Made by a program: the position numbers and the translations under genes. From a virus: a stretch of DNA of 34,951 nt. The notes under the pieces were generated by a model. The model did not search any database. It worked only from the letters and a program-made list of their open reading frames with translations, and was not told the origin of the DNA. Below are positions 292 through 11,866 of the stretch, in pieces. Numbering within the stretch: position 1 is the stretch's first letter; each line of letters opens with the position of its first letter. The DNA lies in IMG/VR virus record IMGVR_UViG_3300044812_000038, positions 1 through 34,951 of that record, one strand, 5' to 3'.

Positions 292-2330
292 GGAAAAAGG
301 GCAAGGTGGGAGCAAAGGCGAAAAGGCCCGCCGTGAAGCGCGTGAAGAAGCCGGTGCGGAAAGCTGCCCGCCGATCGCGCGCGCATTACAGCTTGATGGG
401 ACCAACATCGGGCATGGCCGGGCCGCTGGAGGTCCGCAAGGGCGAGGATCTGAAGGCGGCCGCGGCGCGGACGTTGGGGCTTGGTCAACCGACCCGGCGG
501 CTCGACGAGATCAAGATCGGCAAGCGGCACCGCAAAGATTTCGGCGATCTGAAAAGCCTGGCGCGCTCGATCGACGATCGCGGCTCGCTGCTGCAACCGA
601 TCGTCATCAATAAGAACGACAAGCTGATCGCCGGCGAGCGCCGGCTGCGCGCCTGGCCGCTGACGCGCTTCGGCAAAAGCAAGAAACCAATCCCGGTGCA
701 TGTCGTCGACGTCGACAGCATCGTCGCCGGTGAGTGGGACGAGAATGCCCAACGCAAGGACTTCACGCCCTCGGAGGCTGTTGCGATCAAGCGCGAGATC
801 GAGGCGTTGCTGAAGCGGTCGGCCAAGGAGCGGCAGCGCATCCACGGCGGCACGGCGCCGGGCAGGAAAGCGGCAAAGGCGGAAGCCAAGGGCCGGGCGG
901 CCGATCATGCCGCGCGTTATGTCGGCAAGGACCGCAAGACGATCGTCAAGGCGGAAGAGATCGTCGACGCGGCCGAAAAAAATCCGACACTGTTCGGCAA
1001 GCTGAAATCGGACATGGACCGCACTGGCCGGGTCGATGGGCCGCACAAGCGGTTGCAGGTTATGCGCCAGGCCGCGGAGATCCGCAAAGAGCCGCCGCCG
1101 CTGCCGGGCAAGGGGCCTTATCGGGGCGGCATCATCGATCCTCCCTGGCCATCCGAGCCGGCAGAGTTTGGCGAGGATGCGCAAGCGGCGGCCGAGGATG
1201 CTTCGCGGCGTCAGGCGCGCGGCTATTACCCCTATCCGACGATGTCGATCGACGAGATTGCGGCACTTGACGTTCCGTCGATCCTGCACGAGGACGGCGT
1301 GGTCGGCTTGTGGATCACAAACTTCCATTTGGTGCGCGGCCATCACGTTCCGATCCTCAAGCGTTGGGGTCTCTTGGCGGTCACGCTGCGGACCTGGGTA
1401 AAGGACCGCATCGGACGTGGCCAGGTGCTGCGCGGCCAGACCGAACACATGATCATCGCCATCCGCGGCAAGCCAACGATCGAGGTCGGCGGACTATCGA
1501 CGTTCTTCCATGCGGCGATCGGCAAGGAACATTCGGAAAAGCCGCAAAAATCATACGACGACTTCGAGAAGCTGGTCGCGGCGCCGCGCTATTTCGAATT
1601 GTTCGCGCGGCGAAAGCCGCCGGAGAATTGGGACGGCCACGGCGACCAGGTCGGCAAGCTGGTTCGCGACCCGAACATCACCGAAGCCATTTCGACGTTC
1701 TTTTCCTCCTCTGAGGGAAGGGAAGATGAGAAAACCGATCCGGAACTATTCGCGCTGGAAACTATCGAGCGCGGCGGCGACTTCCTGATCCCTGATGACA
1801 TGGTCAAACACCTGACCATCCGCCAGCTGATCAAAGGCGAGAAAAAAAAGCAGATTACGCAGCTGGGGCGCGCGCGTCTCGCGACGCTGCGTGGCATCAG
1901 GACGAAGAAGGCGCGCGGCTCGGCGGCAACCCCCCTCCCTGACGCTCCCCCACAAGGGGGGAGGGAAAAAGAAAGAGCCTGCCGCGTCTGCGGCTCCACC
2001 GAAGAGGCGGCCTGTCCCGGCGGTTGCGCCTGGTCGGTCGAGGATGGTGGCCTCTGCACCGCCTGCGAGCCGGCGCTCCATCATGTCGTGTCCATGCAGG
2101 GCGGGCCGGTCATCGACGCTAAGACCGGCGAGACCTTGGGCGGCGAGAGCGTGGCCATCTGCAGCTGCGGAAAATTTGAAAGCCGCATGAAGTGGGGCGG
2201 ACATGCCGATGCCCAGGACAAGGCCGTGCGTCTGCATTGGCAGGACGTGGTGGCGCTCGCGGGCGGTGTGCCGCCGGCGCTGCGCCGGCGCGGCGCTGGC
2301 AAAAAGCACAAAGCGGGAGCGGCCGCATGA
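288..2330 (+). CDS. ParB-domain / MT-A70 adenine methyltransferase fusion with C-terminal zinc ribbon
   Basis: This 680-residue protein has a basic N-terminus, then a ParB-like nuclease domain (about residues 75-125, with LIAGERRL near 114-120). An MT-A70-type N6-adenine methyltransferase domain follows; its catalytic DPPW is at residues 284-287. Phage ParB/MT-A70 fusions are known and are thought to methylate phage DNA, perhaps protecting it from host nucleases or marking it for replication. The C-terminal part holds two Cys clusters: one from C565 with C568 and the following CPGGC and CTAC, and a later CSCGKF. Both look zinc-binding. A GC-rich palindromic element sits in frame at 1930-1965 between methyltransferase and zinc region. 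The start overlaps the preceding stop (ATGA), and its own stop overlaps the next start. The target sequence cannot be read from the protein. Confidence 0.85.
   Translation: MRKKGKVGAKAKRPAVKRVKKPVRKAARRSRAHYSLMGPTSGMAGPLEVRKGEDLKAAAARTLGLGQPTRRLDEIKIGKRHRKDFGDLKSLARSIDDRGSLLQPIVINKNDKLIAGERRLRAWPLTRFGKSKKPIPVHVVDVDSIVAGEWDENAQRKDFTPSEAVAIKREIEALLKRSAKERQRIHGGTAPGRKAAKAEAKGRAADHAARYVGKDRKTIVKAEEIVDAAEKNPTLFGKLKSDMDRTGRVDGPHKRLQVMRQAAEIRKEPPPLPGKGPYRGGIIDPPWPSEPAEFGEDAQAAAEDASRRQARGYYPYPTMSIDEIAALDVPSILHEDGVVGLWITNFHLVRGHHVPILKRWGLLAVTLRTWVKDRIGRGQVLRGQTEHMIIAIRGKPTIEVGGLSTFFHAAIGKEHSEKPQKSYDDFEKLVAAPRYFELFARRKPPENWDGHGDQVGKLVRDPNITEAISTFFSSSEGREDEKTDPELFALETIERGGDFLIPDDMVKHLTIRQLIKGEKKKQITQLGRARLATLRGIRTKKARGSAATPLPDAPPQGGREKERACRVCGSTEEAACPGGCAWSVEDGGLCTACEPALHHVVSMQGGPVIDAKTGETLGGESVAICSCGKFESRMKWGGHADAQDKAVRLHWQDVVALAGGVPPALRRRGAGKKHKAGAAA
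1930..1965. repeat. GC-rich palindromic element inserted in frame
   Basis: A C-tract followed by a G-tract gives two alternative stems: CTCCCCC (1945-1951) with GGGGGAG (1957-1963), or CCCTCCC (1933-1939) with GGGAGGG (1959-1965). Its base use differs sharply from the flanking coding sequence and its translation (PLPDAPPQGGRE) is linker-like. It resembles the small palindromic elements scattered through Rhizobiales genomes, some inside genes; that assignment is from memory and untested here. Confidence 0.6.
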
Positions 2331-5988: not shown

Positions 5989-7175
5989 CCGGCCTGATCC
6001 CAGCGCACGAGCTGGAGGCGCTGAAGCGCGAACACCCCTGCGACCAGGTCGCCCGTCAATGGGTGGCGCTGCGCCGCGGCGGCAAGCTCGGCCTGATCGG
6101 GCCTTGCCCGATGCATTCGCGCAACGAGAAGGCGGCGGACAGCACCAGCTTCGAATGCAACGCCGAAGGCTGGGTCTGCGCCAGTTGCGAGGACGGCGGC
6201 GACGTCATCAAGCTTGTCATGCTGCGCGAGAACCTGGACTTCCGCGAGGCGGTGGCCCGGCTCGGCGGCACGCGGCCGGTGGACGCGGAGGAGGCCAAGC
6301 GCGCCGAGGCCGCGCATGAAAGGCTGCGGCTGGAGCGTGAGGCGGAGAACAACGAATACCGCGAGCGCGAGCGGCGCGCCGCCTGGGACATCTGGCGCGG
6401 CGGCCGGCCGATCGGCGGCACGGCGGCGGAAGATTATCTGCGCCTTCGGGGGCTGACCTGGCCGGCGGACGTGCGGCTCAAATTCGATCCCTATGCGCGC
6501 TACTATGTGGAAGACCGGCCGAAGGCGCGGCTGCTGCATACGGGGTCGGCTCTGCTGGCGCGGATTCAGCGCGGCGGGCAGTTCAAGGGCGTGCATCGCA
6601 GCTGGTTTGATCTGGCGCAGCCGAAAGGCAAGGCGGTCATCGTCGATCCGAAAACCGGCGCGGCGCTCAACAGCAAGAAGATGCGGGGCTCGAAGAAGGG
6701 CTGCCATATCGATCTAACGGAAACGTCGGCGCCGCACACGCTGATCCTTGGCGAAGGCATCGAGAAAGTGCTGGCGATCTGGACGGCCATGCAGGAAGGC
6801 GGCCGCGATCTCGCCGGCGTCGGCTTCTGGACCTCGGCCGACCTCGGCAATCTCGGCGGCAAGGCCGCGAAGACCGTGGCGCATCCGACGCTGAAGACGC
6901 CGACCGGCCGGGCGCGGCGGGTCGGCGGACCCGAGCCGGACCTGACGTCGCCGGCGATCGAGATCCCGCCGAGCGTGACGCGCCTGGTGCTGCTCGCCGA
7001 CACGACGTCCGATCGCTTCCTGACCGAATGCACCCTGGCGCGCGCGGCCGCGCGCTATGCCCGGCCGGGGCTCGAGATCGTCGCGGCCTGGGGACCGGCC
7101 GGCGCCGACTTCGACGATCTCCTAAGAGAGACGGCCGTGAACGGCCTGATGATGCGCGAGGCCGCGACCGCATGA
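5985..7175 (+). CDS. DNA primase (CHC2 zinc finger + Toprim)
   Basis: 396 residues; start at 5985 in an ATGA overlap. The N-terminal zinc finger is C41-x2-H44-x20-C65-x2-C68, the CHC2-type site used for template recognition. A basic, charged linker (residues about 105-135) follows. A Toprim-like domain has the acidic glutamate E257 in LGEGIEKVL and the metal pair D339/D343 in LLADTTSD, with a conserved AWGPAGADFDDLL end. It would synthesise RNA primers for phage replication, working with the SF3 helicase encoded next, with which its stop overlaps (ATGA). The domain order is that of alphaproteobacterial phage primases. Confidence 0.85.
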   Translation: MTGLIPAHELEALKREHPCDQVARQWVALRRGGKLGLIGPCPMHSRNEKAADSTSFECNAEGWVCASCEDGGDVIKLVMLRENLDFREAVARLGGTRPVDAEEAKRAEAAHERLRLEREAENNEYRERERRAAWDIWRGGRPIGGTAAEDYLRLRGLTWPADVRLKFDPYARYYVEDRPKARLLHTGSALLARIQRGGQFKGVHRSWFDLAQPKGKAVIVDPKTGAALNSKKMRGSKKGCHIDLTETSAPHTLILGEGIEKVLAIWTAMQEGGRDLAGVGFWTSADLGNLGGKAAKTVAHPTLKTPTGRARRVGGPEPDLTSPAIEIPPSVTRLVLLADTTSDRFLTECTLARAAARYARPGLEIVAAWGPAGADFDDLLRETAVNGLMMREAATA

Positions 7176-9205
7176 CTCGCCAGGAAGCGATCGCCGAGAT
7201 CCTGCGTATTGTTGATGGCGCGATCGCGCCGGCGTCGCCGGTGATCACCGAGCCGGCCAGCGAGTCGACTCCCTCACAAAACAATGGCGCGCGGCGCAAG
7301 CCGCGCGGCCGATCGTCTTCTTCCCCTTCCGCATTGCTCCCCGCTTCCTCTTCCAGTTCTTTGCCGGCCGTCGCTGCCGCCGCCCCCGGCGCCGCAGCGG
7401 TCGATCCCGCTGCCTCCCAGGCTCCCAATCTCTCTCGTTCTTCGTCGTCTTTTTCTGTGCGTCCGTCCGCGCCGGCGGGGCAAGAAAAAAAGACAAGCTC
7501 CCAAATGGGAAGATGGCCGGCGGATTACGCCATGGGCGAGGGCGGGGAGCGCGACGAAGACCCGCAGACGTTGAACCGCCGCCTCGGCTTCTTTCCGTGT
7601 ACCGATCTCGGCAATGTCGATCGTTTTGTGCAGCGCCAGCGGGGCCGGCTGATGTGGTGCCGGGCGCTGGGCTGGCTTTGTTGGGACGGCCGCCGCTGGA
7701 ACCAGGACGGCGCCGAAGAGGTGGTGCGGCGGGCGGAACATGAAACGGTGCGCGCCATCCAATTCGAGGCCAAGGCGCTGGCGGCCGAGCTGAAGGAATT
7801 GCTCGATGCCGCCGGCATGCCACCCGCGAAGCCGACAAAGAAAAAGGCCGCGCCGAAAAAGAAGAGCGGCAAAGCCAAGGTGGTAAAGCCCGATCCCGCA
7901 GCGCCGGACGTCGACGACAAGACGCTGGCGCGGATCGAGGCGCTCAAGGACATGCCGAAGAAGCTCGCGGGCTGGGGCCGGCAATCGGAGGCAAACTCCA
8001 AGCTGGTGCCGATCGCCAAGCACGCTGCCGCCTATCTCTCGGTGCAACCCGACCAGCTCGATGCCGACCCTTTCAAAATCAATGTCAACAACGGCACGCT
8101 GATCGTCGACCGCGACATCGCCGGCTACATCGTTTTCCGGCCGCACGATCCGGCCGACCTGATGACCAAGATATCGCCGGTCGATTACGACGCCGCGGCG
8201 CTATGTCCGCAGTTCGACAAGTTCTTCGGCGAAGTCCAGGGCAAGCCGGAAAACCGGCGGCTGCTGCTGGCCTGGATGGGCTATTCGCTAACGTCGGACA
8301 CCACTGAGCAAAAGCTCTGCATGTTCTACGGCAAGGGTCAGAACGGAAAATCCGTCTTTGTCGATCTGTGTTGCCATGTCGCCGGCGACTATGCCGAGAC
8401 CGTGCCGATCGAGACCTTCCTCAACGAGGGTCGCGGACGCAACGCCGGGCAGGCGACGCCGGACCTCGCCATCCTGCCCAGCGTGCGCATGCTGCGGACA
8501 TCGGAGCCGGAAAAGGGGGCGAAGCTTTCCGAGGCGCTGATCAAGCTGGCGACCGGCGGCGAGCCGATCATCGCGCGCCACCTCAACCGCGACTATTTCA
8601 AATTCTATCCCCACTTCAAGCTGACGATTTCCGGCAACTACCGGCCGCAGATCCTGGGCACCGATGAAGGCATCTGGCGGCGCATGGTGCTGGTGCCTTG
8701 GACCTACCGCGTGCCCGACGACAAGAAAGACGTGCACTTGGTCGGCAAGCTGCGCCAGGAAGCGTCCGGCGTTCTCAACCGGCTGCTCGACGGCCTGCGC
8801 GACTGGCTCGACCACGGACTGGTGCTGTCGGCCGACGTCGATGCCGCGACCAAAGAATATCGGCGCGATAGCGATCCGCTCGGCCGCTTCCTGCAAGCTT
8901 GCGTCGTCGATGCGCCGGGCGAGCGGGTCCAGTCATCCGAGCTGCACAAGCTTTTCAACGCTTGGGGCACCGCCAACGGCGCCTCGGTCTGGAGCGGCAA
9001 GGGCTTCTCCAACGCCATGACCGAACGCGGCTTCCAGAAAAAGCAGTCGGACGTGATGTGGTGGCTCGACATCAAGACCACGAAATTGGTCAGCGACTTT
9101 GTCGACGACGACGGCAAGTCGAAGCGCCAGCGAGGTGACGGCGAGCCGGACGCGGACCCGAAGGCGCGTGGCGGCGGCACCGACGATGACCGTTTCGACG
9201 GATGA
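7172..9205 (+). CDS. D5/P4-type SF3 primase-helicase
   Basis: 677 residues from ATG 7172 (ATGA overlap); the earlier in-frame ATG lies inside the primase. A short N-terminal helix is followed by a Ser/Pro/Ala-rich low-complexity linker (about residues 35-110), a D5_N-type middle region, and an SF3 AAA+ ATPase with Walker A GKGQNGKS (K393). The sensor segment KLTISGNYRPQ and the final winged-helix part ending near KKQSDVMWW complete the family layout. A Lys-rich stretch (KPTKKKAAPKKKSGKAK) lies near residues 220-236. It should unwind the origin and the fork; the primase-like and helicase functions here are split over two genes. An iteron-like gene-free stretch lies directly downstream. Confidence 0.85.
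   Translation: MTRQEAIAEILRIVDGAIAPASPVITEPASESTPSQNNGARRKPRGRSSSSPSALLPASSSSSLPAVAAAAPGAAAVDPAASQAPNLSRSSSSFSVRPSAPAGQEKKTSSQMGRWPADYAMGEGGERDEDPQTLNRRLGFFPCTDLGNVDRFVQRQRGRLMWCRALGWLCWDGRRWNQDGAEEVVRRAEHETVRAIQFEAKALAAELKELLDAAGMPPAKPTKKKAAPKKKSGKAKVVKPDPAAPDVDDKTLARIEALKDMPKKLAGWGRQSEANSKLVPIAKHAAAYLSVQPDQLDADPFKINVNNGTLIVDRDIAGYIVFRPHDPADLMTKISPVDYDAAALCPQFDKFFGEVQGKPENRRLLLAWMGYSLTSDTTEQKLCMFYGKGQNGKSVFVDLCCHVAGDYAETVPIETFLNEGRGRNAGQATPDLAILPSVRMLRTSEPEKGAKLSEALIKLATGGEPIIARHLNRDYFKFYPHFKLTISGNYRPQILGTDEGIWRRMVLVPWTYRVPDDKKDVHLVGKLRQEASGVLNRLLDGLRDWLDHGLVLSADVDAATKEYRRDSDPLGRFLQACVVDAPGERVQSSELHKLFNAWGTANGASVWSGKGFSNAMTERGFQKKQSDVMWWLDIKTTKLVSDFVDDDGKSKRQRGDGEPDADPKARGGGTDDDRFDG
7288..7307 (+). 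other. Coding-region hairpin with GNRA loop
   Basis: A perfect 8-bp stem, CGCGCGGC / GCCGCGCG, closed by GCAA. It lies where the helicase passes into its low-complexity linker. Almost the same hairpin (9-bp stem, GAAA loop) occurs after the capsid gene at 17440-17461. Confidence 0.55.
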
Positions 9206-9218
9206 CGACGCTCCCGTG

Positions 9219-9236
9219 CCTCCCGTTTTTGGGAGG
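9219..9236 (+). terminator. Weak hairpin after the helicase gene
   Basis: CCTCCC (9219-9224), loop GTTTTT, GGGAGG (9231-9236), 14 bp after the helicase stop. The T-run is in the loop, not after the stem, so this is at most a weak intrinsic terminator. It is also part of the TTGGGAG motif set. Confidence 0.3.
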
Positions 9237-9492
9237 TTGGGCGCGGCGCTAAGCGATTGAGGTAATTGCGTTTGGGAGGTTGCGGGATGGTTGGGAGCTT
9301 TGTGGCGGCATCGGACTCACGTGCATGCGGGCGCGCGAGCGCGCATGCGCATACACGAGAAAATCCTCCCAATCCTCCCAATGCTCCCAAGTGATTCCAA
9401 AGACTCAAGAATTTCCCGTGGCTTAACGGAGCGGGGAGCATCGAGATCGTTGTTCTTGATCCTCCCACCTGCCTCCCGGCGACGATGAAAGA

Positions 9493-9521
9493 AACACTGT
9501 GGGGAATTTCCCCGGAGTGAT
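9493..9521. promoter_or_regulatory. 29-bp palindromic element, copy 1 (upstream of nusG-like gene)
   Basis: The core 9495-9519 has dyad symmetry CACT-N2-GGGGAA-N-TTCCCC-N2-AGTG. The whole 29 bp recurs perfectly, in inverse orientation, at 11135-11163. This copy ends 29 bp before the nusG-like start. The symmetry suggests a dimeric DNA-binding protein or a hairpin recognised in nascent DNA/RNA. No known regulator is assigned. Confidence 0.7.
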
Positions 9522-9550
9522 CGGCACCTGGAAAACGAAAGGCGACTGCG

Positions 9551-10225
9551 ATGAACAAGAGCAACAATAAGCGACAGCGCGGTAAATTGGAGCATCAGGC
9601 GTTAGCGCTTGCGGATCGGAAATGGGGCCAGCCGCGCCACCGATCGTTGCAAAGCGCCTTCGCCGATATCATCGATCATCCGCCGGAGCGGGAATACTCC
9701 GGCTATCCCGTCTGGCACGCACTGCTGGTGGAGGCGCGCAAGGAAAAGCAATCAGCCGAGCGGCTGAGGAGCTTGCACGTGCACGTCTACCTACCGCTCT
9801 ACAGCCGAAGGATTGCGTTGCGCGGCGGAAGGCGCGGCCAGCGCGATACTGCTGTGGTCAGCGGCATGCTGTTCGTGCCGCGCGAGATCGTGGAGATCGA
9901 CCGGCGGGACGATGTTTTCGAATATGCGCATGTGTTCGGATTTCTGAATTCATCGGACGGCTATCCGGCCCGACTGAGCAAAGCCCTCATCGAAGAGATC
10001 CGCAACATGGAAGCGCTCGCCAACAAACAAGAGGAAGGCCCGGCATCGGTTGTGTTCGAGATTGGCGCGCGCGTCGCTTTCAAGAATAAGCTGCTGGCGG
10101 AATTCTGGGGATCGGGAAAGGTCACGGGGCTTGCGGGCGATGGGAGAATCAGTATTGAGGTGGGGAAGCTGTTAGGGCGCGCGACCAAAGTTCACGTCCC
10201 GGCGTCCGAGATTGAGGCGATGTAA
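9551..10225 (+). CDS. NusG-like transcription elongation/antitermination protein
   Basis: 224 residues. After a basic N-terminal extension (about 1-48), the middle part reads like a NusG N-terminal domain: VWHALLVEARKEKQSAERL, YLPLYSRRIA, SGMLFVPREIV and a VFGFL strand. Residues about 169-224 form a KOW-type domain: FEIGARVAF, FWGSGKVTGL, then LGRATKVHVP, matching the NusG ending GRATPVE. NusG proteins bind the RNA polymerase clamp; specialised paralogues (RfaH, LoaP) make polymerase ignore terminators in chosen operons. AAAGG (9538-9542) is the ribosome site. It lies between the replication and late genes and is followed by terminator-like hairpins. The antitermination role is inference. Confidence 0.75.
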   Translation: MNKSNNKRQRGKLEHQALALADRKWGQPRHRSLQSAFADIIDHPPEREYSGYPVWHALLVEARKEKQSAERLRSLHVHVYLPLYSRRIALRGGRRGQRDTAVVSGMLFVPREIVEIDRRDDVFEYAHVFGFLNSSDGYPARLSKALIEEIRNMEALANKQEEGPASVVFEIGARVAFKNKLLAEFWGSGKVTGLAGDGRISIEVGKLLGRATKVHVPASEIEAM

Positions 10226-10323
10226 CTGAGGCCAGTAAGCCGCAAGGCCTAATTCCTCAGCCAAAGCGCCTCCGCGATGGAAGTCCATCACAGCCACGGG
10301 CATTTGCCCGTGCTGCCGCTTGC

Positions 10324-10349
10324 AAGCCCCGGCATCGTCCGGGGCTTTT
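10324..10349 (+). terminator. Intrinsic terminator-like hairpin 1
   Basis: AAGCCCCGG (10324-10332), loop CATCGT, CCGGGGCTT (10339-10347), then TTTTGTATTTTT. A 9-bp GC-rich stem with a following T-rich stretch is a good Rho-independent terminator. It lies about 100 bp after the nusG-like stop. Confidence 0.7.
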
Positions 10350-10415
10350 GTATTTTTAGGGACTGGCTTTGACCGGCGGTCCCTGTCTGCCTCCCTGTGA
10401 CGTTGCGTTGTGTAC

Positions 10416-10450
10416 AAAGGCCCCGGTGATGGCGCTTCGCCGGGGCCTTT
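10416..10450 (+). terminator. Intrinsic terminator-like hairpin 2
   Basis: AAAGGCCCCGG (10416-10426) pairs with CCGGGGCCTTT (10440-10450), an 11-bp stem with a 13-base loop. The loop and 3' arm can alternatively fold as GGCG-CTT-CGCC (10431-10441). Only three T follow the GC stem, so its strength is uncertain. Confidence 0.55.
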
Positions 10451-10496
10451 GCTGTTCCTAAGGGTGCGGGCCTTCGGGCCTTCAACCTTCGAACCT

Positions 10497-10513
10497 GGAG
10501 CAGCACCATGTAA
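10497..10513 (+). other. Ribosome site followed by start-stop (ATGTAA)
   Basis: GGAG (10497-10500), seven bases, ATG (10508-10510) directly followed by TAA. The spacing is ideal for initiation, yet the product is a single methionine. It lies between terminator-like hairpins 2 and 3. It may be the stub of a deleted gene or a ribosome-stalling minigene. Confidence 0.35.
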
Positions 10514-10542
10514 ATCAGTTCGTCCCACTTTTTCAGGACAGC

Positions 10543-10570
10543 AGCCCCGGTCGCAAGGCCGGGGCTTTTT
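10543..10570 (+). terminator. Intrinsic terminator-like hairpin 3
   Basis: AGCCCCGG (10543-10550), loop TCGCAAGG, CCGGGGCT (10559-10566), with five T from 10566 to 10570. It sits 21 bp before the HNH start, so it would cut transcription just before the packaging genes. Confidence 0.65.
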
Positions 10571-10591
10571 GCGTTTGGTAGGAGGCGCGTC

Positions 10592-10996
10592 ATGCCGTCG
10601 AGGCCGCGGTTGTTCCGGGCGCGGCATACGCCGCCGCAGCAGCAACAGGATCGCGCTTATGAGGGGCGGCGCGGCAGCGCGCGACGGCGTGGCTATACCT
10701 CGGCCTGGGACAAGGCGGCAAAGGCGCACCGGGTTACGCATCCGCTCTGTCTTGGATGCGAGGCCATCGGGAGGGTCACTGCCGCGGCCTGCACGGATCA
10801 TGCGGTCCCTCACAAAGGCGACCGTTTGCTGTTTTGGGATAGCGACAACTGGCAATCGGCCTGCGACTGGCACCATGACGTGGTGAAGCAGAAGCTGGAG
10901 CTGCGGTATGCCCAAGGCAAGGCCACCGCTTCCGATCTGCGGCTCGATAGCCTGGTGGCCGTCGCCTTGACGCTCGAACTGCTCGGCCTTGAGTGA
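10592..10996 (+). CDS. HNH endonuclease (packaging-associated)
   Basis: 134 residues with a strong ribosome site (TAGGAGG, 10579-10585). The basic N-terminus is followed by an HNH fold: CLGC, then TDHAVPHKGD (His of the first strand), DSDNWQSAC (Asn) and DWHHDVVK (last His). Small HNH proteins directly before terminase genes, as HK97 gp74, are needed with TerS/TerL for cos cleavage and packaging; this position suggests the same job. Of the two Cys pairs of the fold, C-x2-C is clear and a second Cys lies in CTDH and SACDWH. It could also be a homing-type nuclease, but the location favours packaging. Confidence 0.8.
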   Translation: MPSRPRLFRARHTPPQQQQDRAYEGRRGSARRRGYTSAWDKAAKAHRVTHPLCLGCEAIGRVTAAACTDHAVPHKGDRLLFWDSDNWQSACDWHHDVVKQKLELRYAQGKATASDLRLDSLVAVALTLELLGLE

Positions 10997-11005
10997 GTTC
11001 GCGCC

Positions 11006-11036
11006 TTGACCTTCGGTGGGGGGGTGGGGGGGTCAA
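11006..11036. other. Paired G7 runs flanked by TTGACC/GGTCAA
   Basis: Two runs of seven G (11018-11024 and 11026-11032) separated by one T, enclosed by the inverted repeat TTGACC (11006-11011) and GGTCAA (11031-11036). It lies between the HNH and terminase genes, where a cos site or leader could be. The runs could form a G-rich structure; function unknown. Confidence 0.4.
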
Positions 11037-11134
11037 AAGTCCCCGCGTTTTTCCTCCGGACCGGTTGGGTAGGCCCTCTTTTTTTGCCGCGAAATTCCGT
11101 GGATTATTTTTTTTACTGTGTTGCGACGGCGGCA

Positions 11135-11163
11135 ATCACTCCGGGGAAATTCCCCACAGTGTT
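11135..11163. promoter_or_regulatory. 29-bp palindromic element, copy 2 (upstream of terminase)
   Basis: Perfect inverse copy of 9493-9521, with the same dyad core CACT-N2-GGGGAA-N-TTCCCC-N2-AGTG (11137-11161). It ends 16 bp before the TerS ATG and follows an AT-rich stretch (11092-11120). Its placement ahead of the first late gene makes a transcription control site likely. Confidence 0.7.
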
Positions 11164-11179: not shown

Positions 11180-11866
11180 ATGGCAAGAGGACGACGCGCC
11201 GACGATCCGCAGGATCAGAAGGCCAAGGGTTATCCGGGCAAGCGCAAGTCGAAAACGGAGCGCGCGCTGGAGGCGATGGAACGCGCCGCCGCGCGCGACG
11301 CAAAACTGTTCGCCACTGCGGGCAAAGGTGTCGACCTGCAGGCGCTGCCGATCTTCCTCGCGGACAAGCGGCTCGCAGCGGCGCAAACGATCTGGACGGA
11401 ATACGCGCCGCGGCTCGACAAGCTGCATCTGCTGGCGACGCTCGACCGCTACACCTTCGCGATGTTCTGCCTCTACTCGGCGGAATTCGTCCTCGCCAAC
11501 AAAGATATTCTCGACCACGGTTATTCGGTCATGGTGACCACGGTCGCCGGCTCGAAGAAGTCAAAAGCTTCGGGCACGCAGATGCCGCGCCTCAATCCTT
11601 CGGTGGACCGGCGCGACTTCGCCGCCAAGATGATGCTCGATCTCGCCGGCAAGTTCGGCTTTACGCCGCTCGATCGCAACCGGCTGATCCGCGAACACGC
11701 GATGCGTGAAGACGAGGAAACCCTGTTCGGCCGCATCCGCTCGCAGCCGGCGCAGCCGCATCCGCAACAGCAGCCGGCAGCGACGGATATCGTCGAAGAA
11801 GCCTCGGCGATGATCGGCTCGCTCGGCCGGCTCGATACGCCGCCGCCGAACCGGAAGCCGAATTAG
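11180..11866 (+). CDS. Terminase small subunit (P27 family)
   Basis: 228 residues from ATG 11180; the ribosome site is weak, and an in-frame GTG at 11159 inside the palindromic element could add seven residues. The basic N-terminus (MARGRRADDPQDQKAKG) is followed by the helical P27 core (TERALEAMERAA, LDRYTFAMFCLYSAEF) and the LDLAGKFGFTPLDRNRL segment typical of the family. The C-terminus is Pro/Gln-rich. TerS recognises phage DNA and recruits TerL at the start of packaging. TerL starts 22 bp downstream. Confidence 0.85.
   Translation: MARGRRADDPQDQKAKGYPGKRKSKTERALEAMERAAARDAKLFATAGKGVDLQALPIFLADKRLAAAQTIWTEYAPRLDKLHLLATLDRYTFAMFCLYSAEFVLANKDILDHGYSVMVTTVAGSKKSKASGTQMPRLNPSVDRRDFAAKMMLDLAGKFGFTPLDRNRLIREHAMREDEETLFGRIRSQPAQPHPQQQPAATDIVEEASAMIGSLGRLDTPPPNRKPN

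Follow-up and report, generated by a model that had tools for sequence, protein, structure and literature searches.

The window, i.e., the whole stretch of DNA analyzed, is a 34,951-bp virus contig from IMG/VR, and the phage it records is referred to here as W; labels beginning with G and L denote the compared genomes and loci, respectively. Its gene order starts with a ParB/MT-A70 fusion and small early genes, followed by a primase gene and a gene for a D5-type primase-helicase (7028-9205). These are succeeded by an intergenic region, a nusG-like gene (9551-10225, plus strand, 224 aa), a 366-bp intergenic region, and an HNH endonuclease gene (10592-10996, plus strand; PHROG 2323, 2e-26), and then by the genes for the small (terS) and large (terL) terminase subunits, the portal, and other late genes. 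Identified by profile matches, terS (11180-11866, plus strand) is the first gene after the second copy of a palindromic element and belongs to a late block of ~24 kb. The coordinates given in a preliminary description of this DNA were right to within a few bases; two features presented below, a putative replication origin and a structured RNA behind the nusG-like gene, were absent from it.

The closest comparisons are with G003 (loci L002 and L053), a sister phage of W, and with G407 and G408 (L097, L098, L101, and L102), its terminase relatives, in which the order is nusG-like gene, HNH, contig end, terS, and terL, and the palindrome is absent. The fusion of a ParB N-terminal domain to an MT-A70 adenine methyltransferase (W 288-2330) is common to G003, L056, and L058. 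Tandem repeats of 39 bp (13 residues, RARHAAAMADPEV) are found at W 1-117 (the contig start), at the start of L053, and again where the G003 record ends; the W and G003 assemblies both break at these repeats. The contigs of G407 and G408 (L101, L102, L097, and L098) stop at ..CCGGGAC between HNH and terS, and G408 picks up again at the homologous next bases, matching W ~11057-11078. Because the contigs of both phages share this end and G408 resumes at the very next bases, the break points to a cos site, at which the genomes of this phage group would end.

The assignment of the gene at 9551-10225 to a NusG paralog, made in the preliminary description, is borne out by Pfam, NCBIfam, PHROG 6386, a five-sequence profile, and the predicted fold. 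The Pfam NusG model PF02357 matches residues 55-151 over its gathering score (E = 4.4e-7). PHROG 6386, annotated as "transcription antiterminator," matches at 5.2e-12 over positions 13-177 of its 179, with the proviso that this profile matches housekeeping NusG too, in most genomes; as a search probe in 297 genomes it was useless, ringing on housekeeping NusG. When compared with solved structures, a profile of five relatives matched E. coli NusG (7e-5). The protein is divided into an N-terminal extension of low confidence (1-50), an NGN domain (~53-157), and a KOW/beta-barrel C-terminal domain (~165-224). The last of these has a pLDDT of ~75-85 in an AlphaFold2 model of small alignment depth, a first model from 3 sequences having been too weak. 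Structure matches to residues ~50-224 of this model have NusG and RfaH on top (NusG Z of ~9-10), and the E. coli NusG C-terminal domain (2jvv) matches with a Z of 7.7; the Pfam KOW model does not match the W protein. With both an NGN domain and a C-terminal KOW/beta-barrel domain in the predicted fold, the protein is placed in the NusG/Spt5 superfamily.

Its position within that superfamily is less conventional. The best NCBIfam match is UpxY (2e-10), followed by NusG (1e-5) and RfaH (5e-4), all under the curated cut-offs: 40.9 bits for UpxY (NF033644, over 100 bits), 25.3 bits for housekeeping NusG (TIGR00922, over 135.7 bits), and 20.1 bits for RfaH (TIGR01955, over 144.5 bits). The LoaP model (NF033641, over 125 bits) is not among the W matches at E<=1; it gives 18 bits for the G408 protein and 38 bits for that of G004. 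Profile searches thus agree with the earlier proposal of a NusG/KOW paralog in that an NGN/NusG domain is recognized (PF02357), whereas the protein falls outside the curated limits of the NusG, RfaH, and LoaP families. Since no curated cut-off for NusG, RfaH, UpxY, or LoaP was passed, it is best called an unclassified specialized NusG paralog. Protein searches returned no relatives among annotated phages and plasmids.

Directly after the stop codon of the nusG-like gene lies a conserved structured RNA of ~94 nt (10226-10319, plus strand, as are all its parts), which is also present in G407, L110, and L104. A comparison of W with G407 revealed that the conserved RNA comprises hairpin A, a linker, and hairpins B and C, followed by a G+C-rich terminator-like hairpin. 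More specifically, hairpin A (10226-10260) has an outer stem CUGAGG/CCUCAG, an internal loop, and an inner stem GCC/GGC. The invariant linker CAAAGC(GCC) (CAAAGCGCC in the W versus G407 comparison) spans 10262-10270, hairpin B (10276-10289) carries compensatory changes in G407 and L110, and hairpin C (CAGCCACGGGCAUUUGCCCGUGCUG, 10291-10315) is near-invariant in sequence. L104 was found by protein and L110 by the DNA pattern of hairpin C, and both have the same arrangement; the NusG-like proteins of the RNA bearers are 52% (G407), 47% (L104), and 44% (L110) identical to that of W. The element is known from these four copies, all on metagenomic contigs, one of which (L104) is missing hairpin B.

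In hairpin B, all 15 cells are paired and 3 of the 5 pairs have two-sided changes; with B and C taken together as the whole structure, shuffle controls equaled the pairing and the two-sided change in 5-10 of 500 cases. A covariance model built from W, G407, and L110 found L104 independently (50 bits, E = 9e-11). Run over 397 host genomes of the order, the same model gave three hits with a best score of 35.9 bits; those in G107, G176, and G212 adjoin no nusG-like gene and were dismissed as chance. For hairpin A, compensatory changes were seen in 7 of 7 pairs in a hand alignment, which is biased toward pairing because it takes the best stem per sequence; in folding, every copy outranks 93-99% of its shuffles. 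Stronger evidence for the RNA comes from the tool count for hairpin B and from the match that the model made independently. As a whole, the L104 region is not significantly stable (z = -0.4). The element matches no Rfam family, and it was seen only behind this branch of NusG paralogs, apart from the branch in none of the cases found; the cis element that co-occurs with the branch is thus the RNA at 10226-10319.

The 125 nt behind the more distant nusG-like genes of G408, G003, and L055 also fold significantly (z of -3.1 to -3.6). In G408, four small hairpins precede a terminator-like hairpin (z = -3.6), and in G003, a different RNA (z = -3.1) lies behind the exchanged nusG-like gene, with only the hairpin before HNH kept. 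Several ATCACG repeats occupy the place of hairpins A-C in the latter phage (L053 9474-9535). The nusG-like gene of G004 adjoins HNH, and no significant structure was found behind it (z = -1.0).

Three terminator-like hairpins had been proposed between the nusG-like and terminase genes, at 10324-10570. All three exist, but only the outer two qualify as intrinsic terminators, the middle one (10415-10451, plus strand), a strong 15-bp hairpin by folding, having no T-rich tail. Terminator 1 (10324-10347, plus strand, tail TTGTATTTTT) has a counterpart in G407, L110, and L104, with T tails that are modest outside W, and terminator 2 (10543-10566, plus strand) ends 25 nt before the HNH gene, with a hairpin at the corresponding position of G003 and of G407. 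Overall, the terminator scan was near chance (7 found versus 4.5 +/- 2.0 expected). Taken singly, however, the stems are far more stable than their shuffled versions, the 366-nt intergenic region as a whole gives a z of -6.8, and a terminator-like hairpin follows the RNA element in all four phages. A sigma-70 scan, which is uninformative in this group, returned no promoters.

The cassette formed by the gene and its RNA is distributed independently of the packaging genes. W and G003 share TerL (82% identity), TerS (73%), and HNH (71%), yet their nusG-like genes cannot be aligned as DNA between 9565 and 10558, and the proteins are only 29% identical over 120 residues. Conversely, W has the NusG paralog and the RNA in common with L110 and L104, whose packaging genes are distant or different: the TerL proteins of L110 and W have only 25% identity, and in L104 the cassette is followed by ORFs that resemble, by eye, a different terminase pair. 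Because W and G003 share packaging genes and not NusG, and W, L110, and L104 the reverse, the NusG-RNA cassette is modular, with a cassette-like pattern of exchange. The different RNAs of G003 and G408 would be consistent with joint replacement of protein and RNA, although only suggestively, each being a single example.

A further feature of the locus is a 29-bp duplex, AACACTGTGGGGAATTTCCCCGGAGTGAT, that occurs exactly twice in W, at 9493-9521 (copy 1) and, inverted, at 11135-11163 (copy 2). Within it, the palindrome occupies 9495-9519 and 11137-11161; by chance, no copy with 3 or fewer mismatches would be expected. The distance to the start codon is 29 bp for the nusG-like gene and 16 bp for terS, as the preliminary description had stated. 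G003 carries two copies at the same two places, a twin arrangement seen so far only in these two phages. The DNA flanking the palindromes is 70-74% identical between W and G003, and given the unalignable nusG-like DNA and the 29% protein identity, the palindrome was retained in G003 although the nusG-like gene was exchanged. Beside a nusG-like gene, the palindrome was not found in 6 of the 7 other phages, the seventh being G003: it was not seen in G407 (whose contig is without the terS leader), G408, G004, L110, or L055, nor in the 54 bp that can be checked in L104, whose contig starts 54 bp before the gene.

A scan of genome contigs yielded two real palindrome bearers among chance half-matches. 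One is L022, a Pseudolabrys contig, in which the gene next to the palindrome is of a kind other than nusG-like; about 75 bp from the consensus copy, at 456-480 (minus strand), this contig has another palindrome that has diverged (GTTCGGGGAAATCCCCC..). The other is contig C26 of G002 (an element of strain PH10), with three palindromes and no NusG gene on the contig, NusG genes being on other contigs. All three matches in the PH10 genome (4.8 Mb) fall within one mobile element, and no match at up to 2 mismatches was found in 396 other genomes of the order. This element (28.2-43.6 kb; L037 and L038) has an integrase, what looks by eye like a GpA-type terminase, a terS-like gene, and the three palindromes in ~15 kb; no capsid genes were seen and no genes in common with W were detectable, and it may be read as a phage satellite or remnant sharing the palindrome site. 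Across seven elements, the half-sites CACTGT, CACTCC, and CACTGC before GGGGAAW occur in free combination.

Upstream of copy 1 and after the D5 primase gene, the region 9206-9480 is a putative replication origin, conserved in D5 relatives. It contains TTGGGAG/CTCCCAA repeats in both orientations that flank an alternating purine-pyrimidine GC palindrome often starting with ACTCACG, and the same layout is found in L053, L022, L054, L055, L056, L058, and L059 (with a CTTCCAA variant in L054). In two more distant relatives (L056/57 and L058), the same place behind the TTGGGAG repeats is taken by perfect palindromes that have other arms but share the AAWTT center; these are single-copy (L056 11932-11964, L057 6896-6928, and L058 11879-11907), and both of their arms differ together. 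In L056, a second ParB-like gene lies directly behind the palindrome.

The W palindrome thus looks like a DNA operator beside the putative origin, and copy 1 is a DNA-site candidate outside the NusG cassette. Most likely, the palindromes are a feature separate from the cassette and serve as operators for a dimeric DNA-binding protein; because the half-sites combine freely, a dimer with independent half-sites fits better than an RNA stem. The reader is probably a regulator encoded by mobile elements. An RNA hairpin is disfavored, since mixed half-sites break pairs and the duplex is identical in both orientations, and a host regulon site is disfavored by the confinement of the PH10 matches to one mobile element and the lack of matches in the 396 other genomes. 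Two candidate readers found no support: the phage ParB-MT-A70 protein, as contig C26 encodes no ParB_N domain, and the C-terminal winged helix of D5, whose recognition-helix sequence does not vary together with the palindrome arms. Nor do the two copies appear to be ends of a transposable or invertible segment, there being no recombinase in the 1.6 kb between them.

Drawing on the predicted NusG fold, the cassette-like exchange, the terminator hairpins, and an RNA structure that covaries and co-occurs with one NusG branch, we lean toward the reading that the NusG paralog and the RNA following its gene act together as a LoaP-like switch for processive antitermination into the late genes. Transcription from the replication region would run through the nusG-like gene, and the nascent RNA of hairpins A-C would recruit the NusG-like protein to the same polymerase. 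Thus modified, the polymerase would read through 10324-10347 and 10543-10566 into HNH, terS, terL, and the remaining late genes; until enough protein had been made, the terminators would hold the late genes off. Since the locus has the same three parts as the LoaP system (a paralog, RNA hairpins, and terminators), recruitment by the RNA and read-through seem the most likely course. RfaH, UpxY, and LoaP work at elements in the leaders of the operons that they target; to our knowledge, there is no direct precedent for an element placed after the gene of the regulator itself.

In the simplest model of the preliminary description, the NusG paralog would carry polymerase past the terminators into the late genes after loading at the palindrome. 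Antitermination itself gains support from the conservation of the cassette in different phage backgrounds; loading at the palindrome does not. The idea that the protein loads there, be it on ops-type DNA or on an RNA hairpin, before its own gene and terS is attractive in that the palindrome sits in the 5' leader of both genes, can be folded as a hairpin, and was retained in G003 while the surrounding DNA drifted. Nevertheless, it is highly improbable: relatives that keep the nusG-like gene (G407, G408, G004, L110, and L055) lack the palindrome, contig C26 and L022 have it with no NusG gene nearby, and it is unchanged in G003 despite the exchange of the protein. Moreover, the two copies are oppositely oriented, whereas loading of the NusG type is directional, and the mixed half-sites break RNA pairing in copy 2 of W (hairpin z of only -1.6) and suit two independent DNA half-sites. 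A striking palindrome adjoining a regulator gene thus need not be the regulator's target, and a plausible misreading is corrected here.

The remaining alternatives concern the RNA itself. The hairpins and terminators could just end the replication-region transcript (or stabilize the nusG-like mRNA, or autoregulate it), with the late genes using their own promoter, perhaps controlled at the second palindrome. Terminators are commonplace at operon ends, a late promoter could have its operator in the palindrome 16 bp before terS, and the G002 element has similar sites ahead of its terS-like gene and of further genes, but a plain terminator needs no 94-nt upstream structure, nor a conserved loop and linker sequence common to only one branch of NusG paralogs, and we regard this explanation as having a limited, although appreciable, likelihood. 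That the RNA acts as an autonomous antiterminator like the put RNAs of HK022, with the NusG-like protein in another role, is suggested by the tandem small hairpins ahead of terminators; it is unlikely in view of the restriction of the element to this NusG branch, from which it was never separate in the cases found.

If the LoaP-like switch is real, W offers a small, self-contained protein-RNA pair (~0.8 kb) for dissecting how RNA recruits a NusG paralog, and the natural swap between W and G003 separates protein specificity from site. We further suggest, tentatively and with slightly less than even confidence, that the locus represents an undescribed class of phage late-gene switch, in which a NusG paralog and a new RNA directly behind it pass jointly, as a single cassette, from one phage to another unrelated one and determine where replication genes give way to late genes, NusG having been independently recruited for the job of lambda Q. 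The available portions of a review and of the LoaP paper (PMC12691694) describe no NusG paralog that serves a phage as antiterminator of its late genes and has a dedicated cis element.

Comparison with known systems places the switch proposed for W among several precedents. Operons for capsules, toxins, secretion, and antibiotics, as well as plasmids, are known to have specialized NusG paralogs. Such proteins join the elongating polymerase at an element close to the operon they control and keep it from pausing or terminating. UpxY and RfaH are NusG paralogs, as in W, and carry polymerase through few long operons; they differ in that W scores far under their curated cut-offs and no ops-like shared DNA element was identified; the C-terminal domain of the W protein is predicted, from a small alignment depth, as NusG-type strands. 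LoaP of the Bacillus velezensis difficidin and macrolactin operons is likewise a specialized NusG paralog, and it works via a small RNA hairpin and then an intrinsic terminator in the leader, ahead of a long operon as in W (PMC12691694). However, the W protein does not match the LoaP model, the W element has two or three hairpins and lies behind the regulator's own gene, and the target is the phage late genes rather than an antibiotic cluster. The loop is of the UNCG type in LoaP, whereas the W-type loops are AUUU/CUUU/AUUG in hairpin C and GCAA/UCUC and others in hairpin A; hairpins and a terminator are therefore present in W, but not the UNCG-type hairpin of a target leader. The put RNAs of HK022 are ~70 nt long and have two stem-loops (PMC9378689). 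As in W, they place hairpins in tandem ahead of terminators in the transcript of a phage. They differ in working without a phage protein, whereas in W the RNA is bound up with a nusG-like gene and has no Rfam match. In lambda, Q and N provide late and early antitermination, acting at a qut promoter site or at nut RNA. As proposed for W, these are phage genes whose products let polymerase into the next block of genes; they belong to other protein families, and the site in W would be the RNA element behind the gene.
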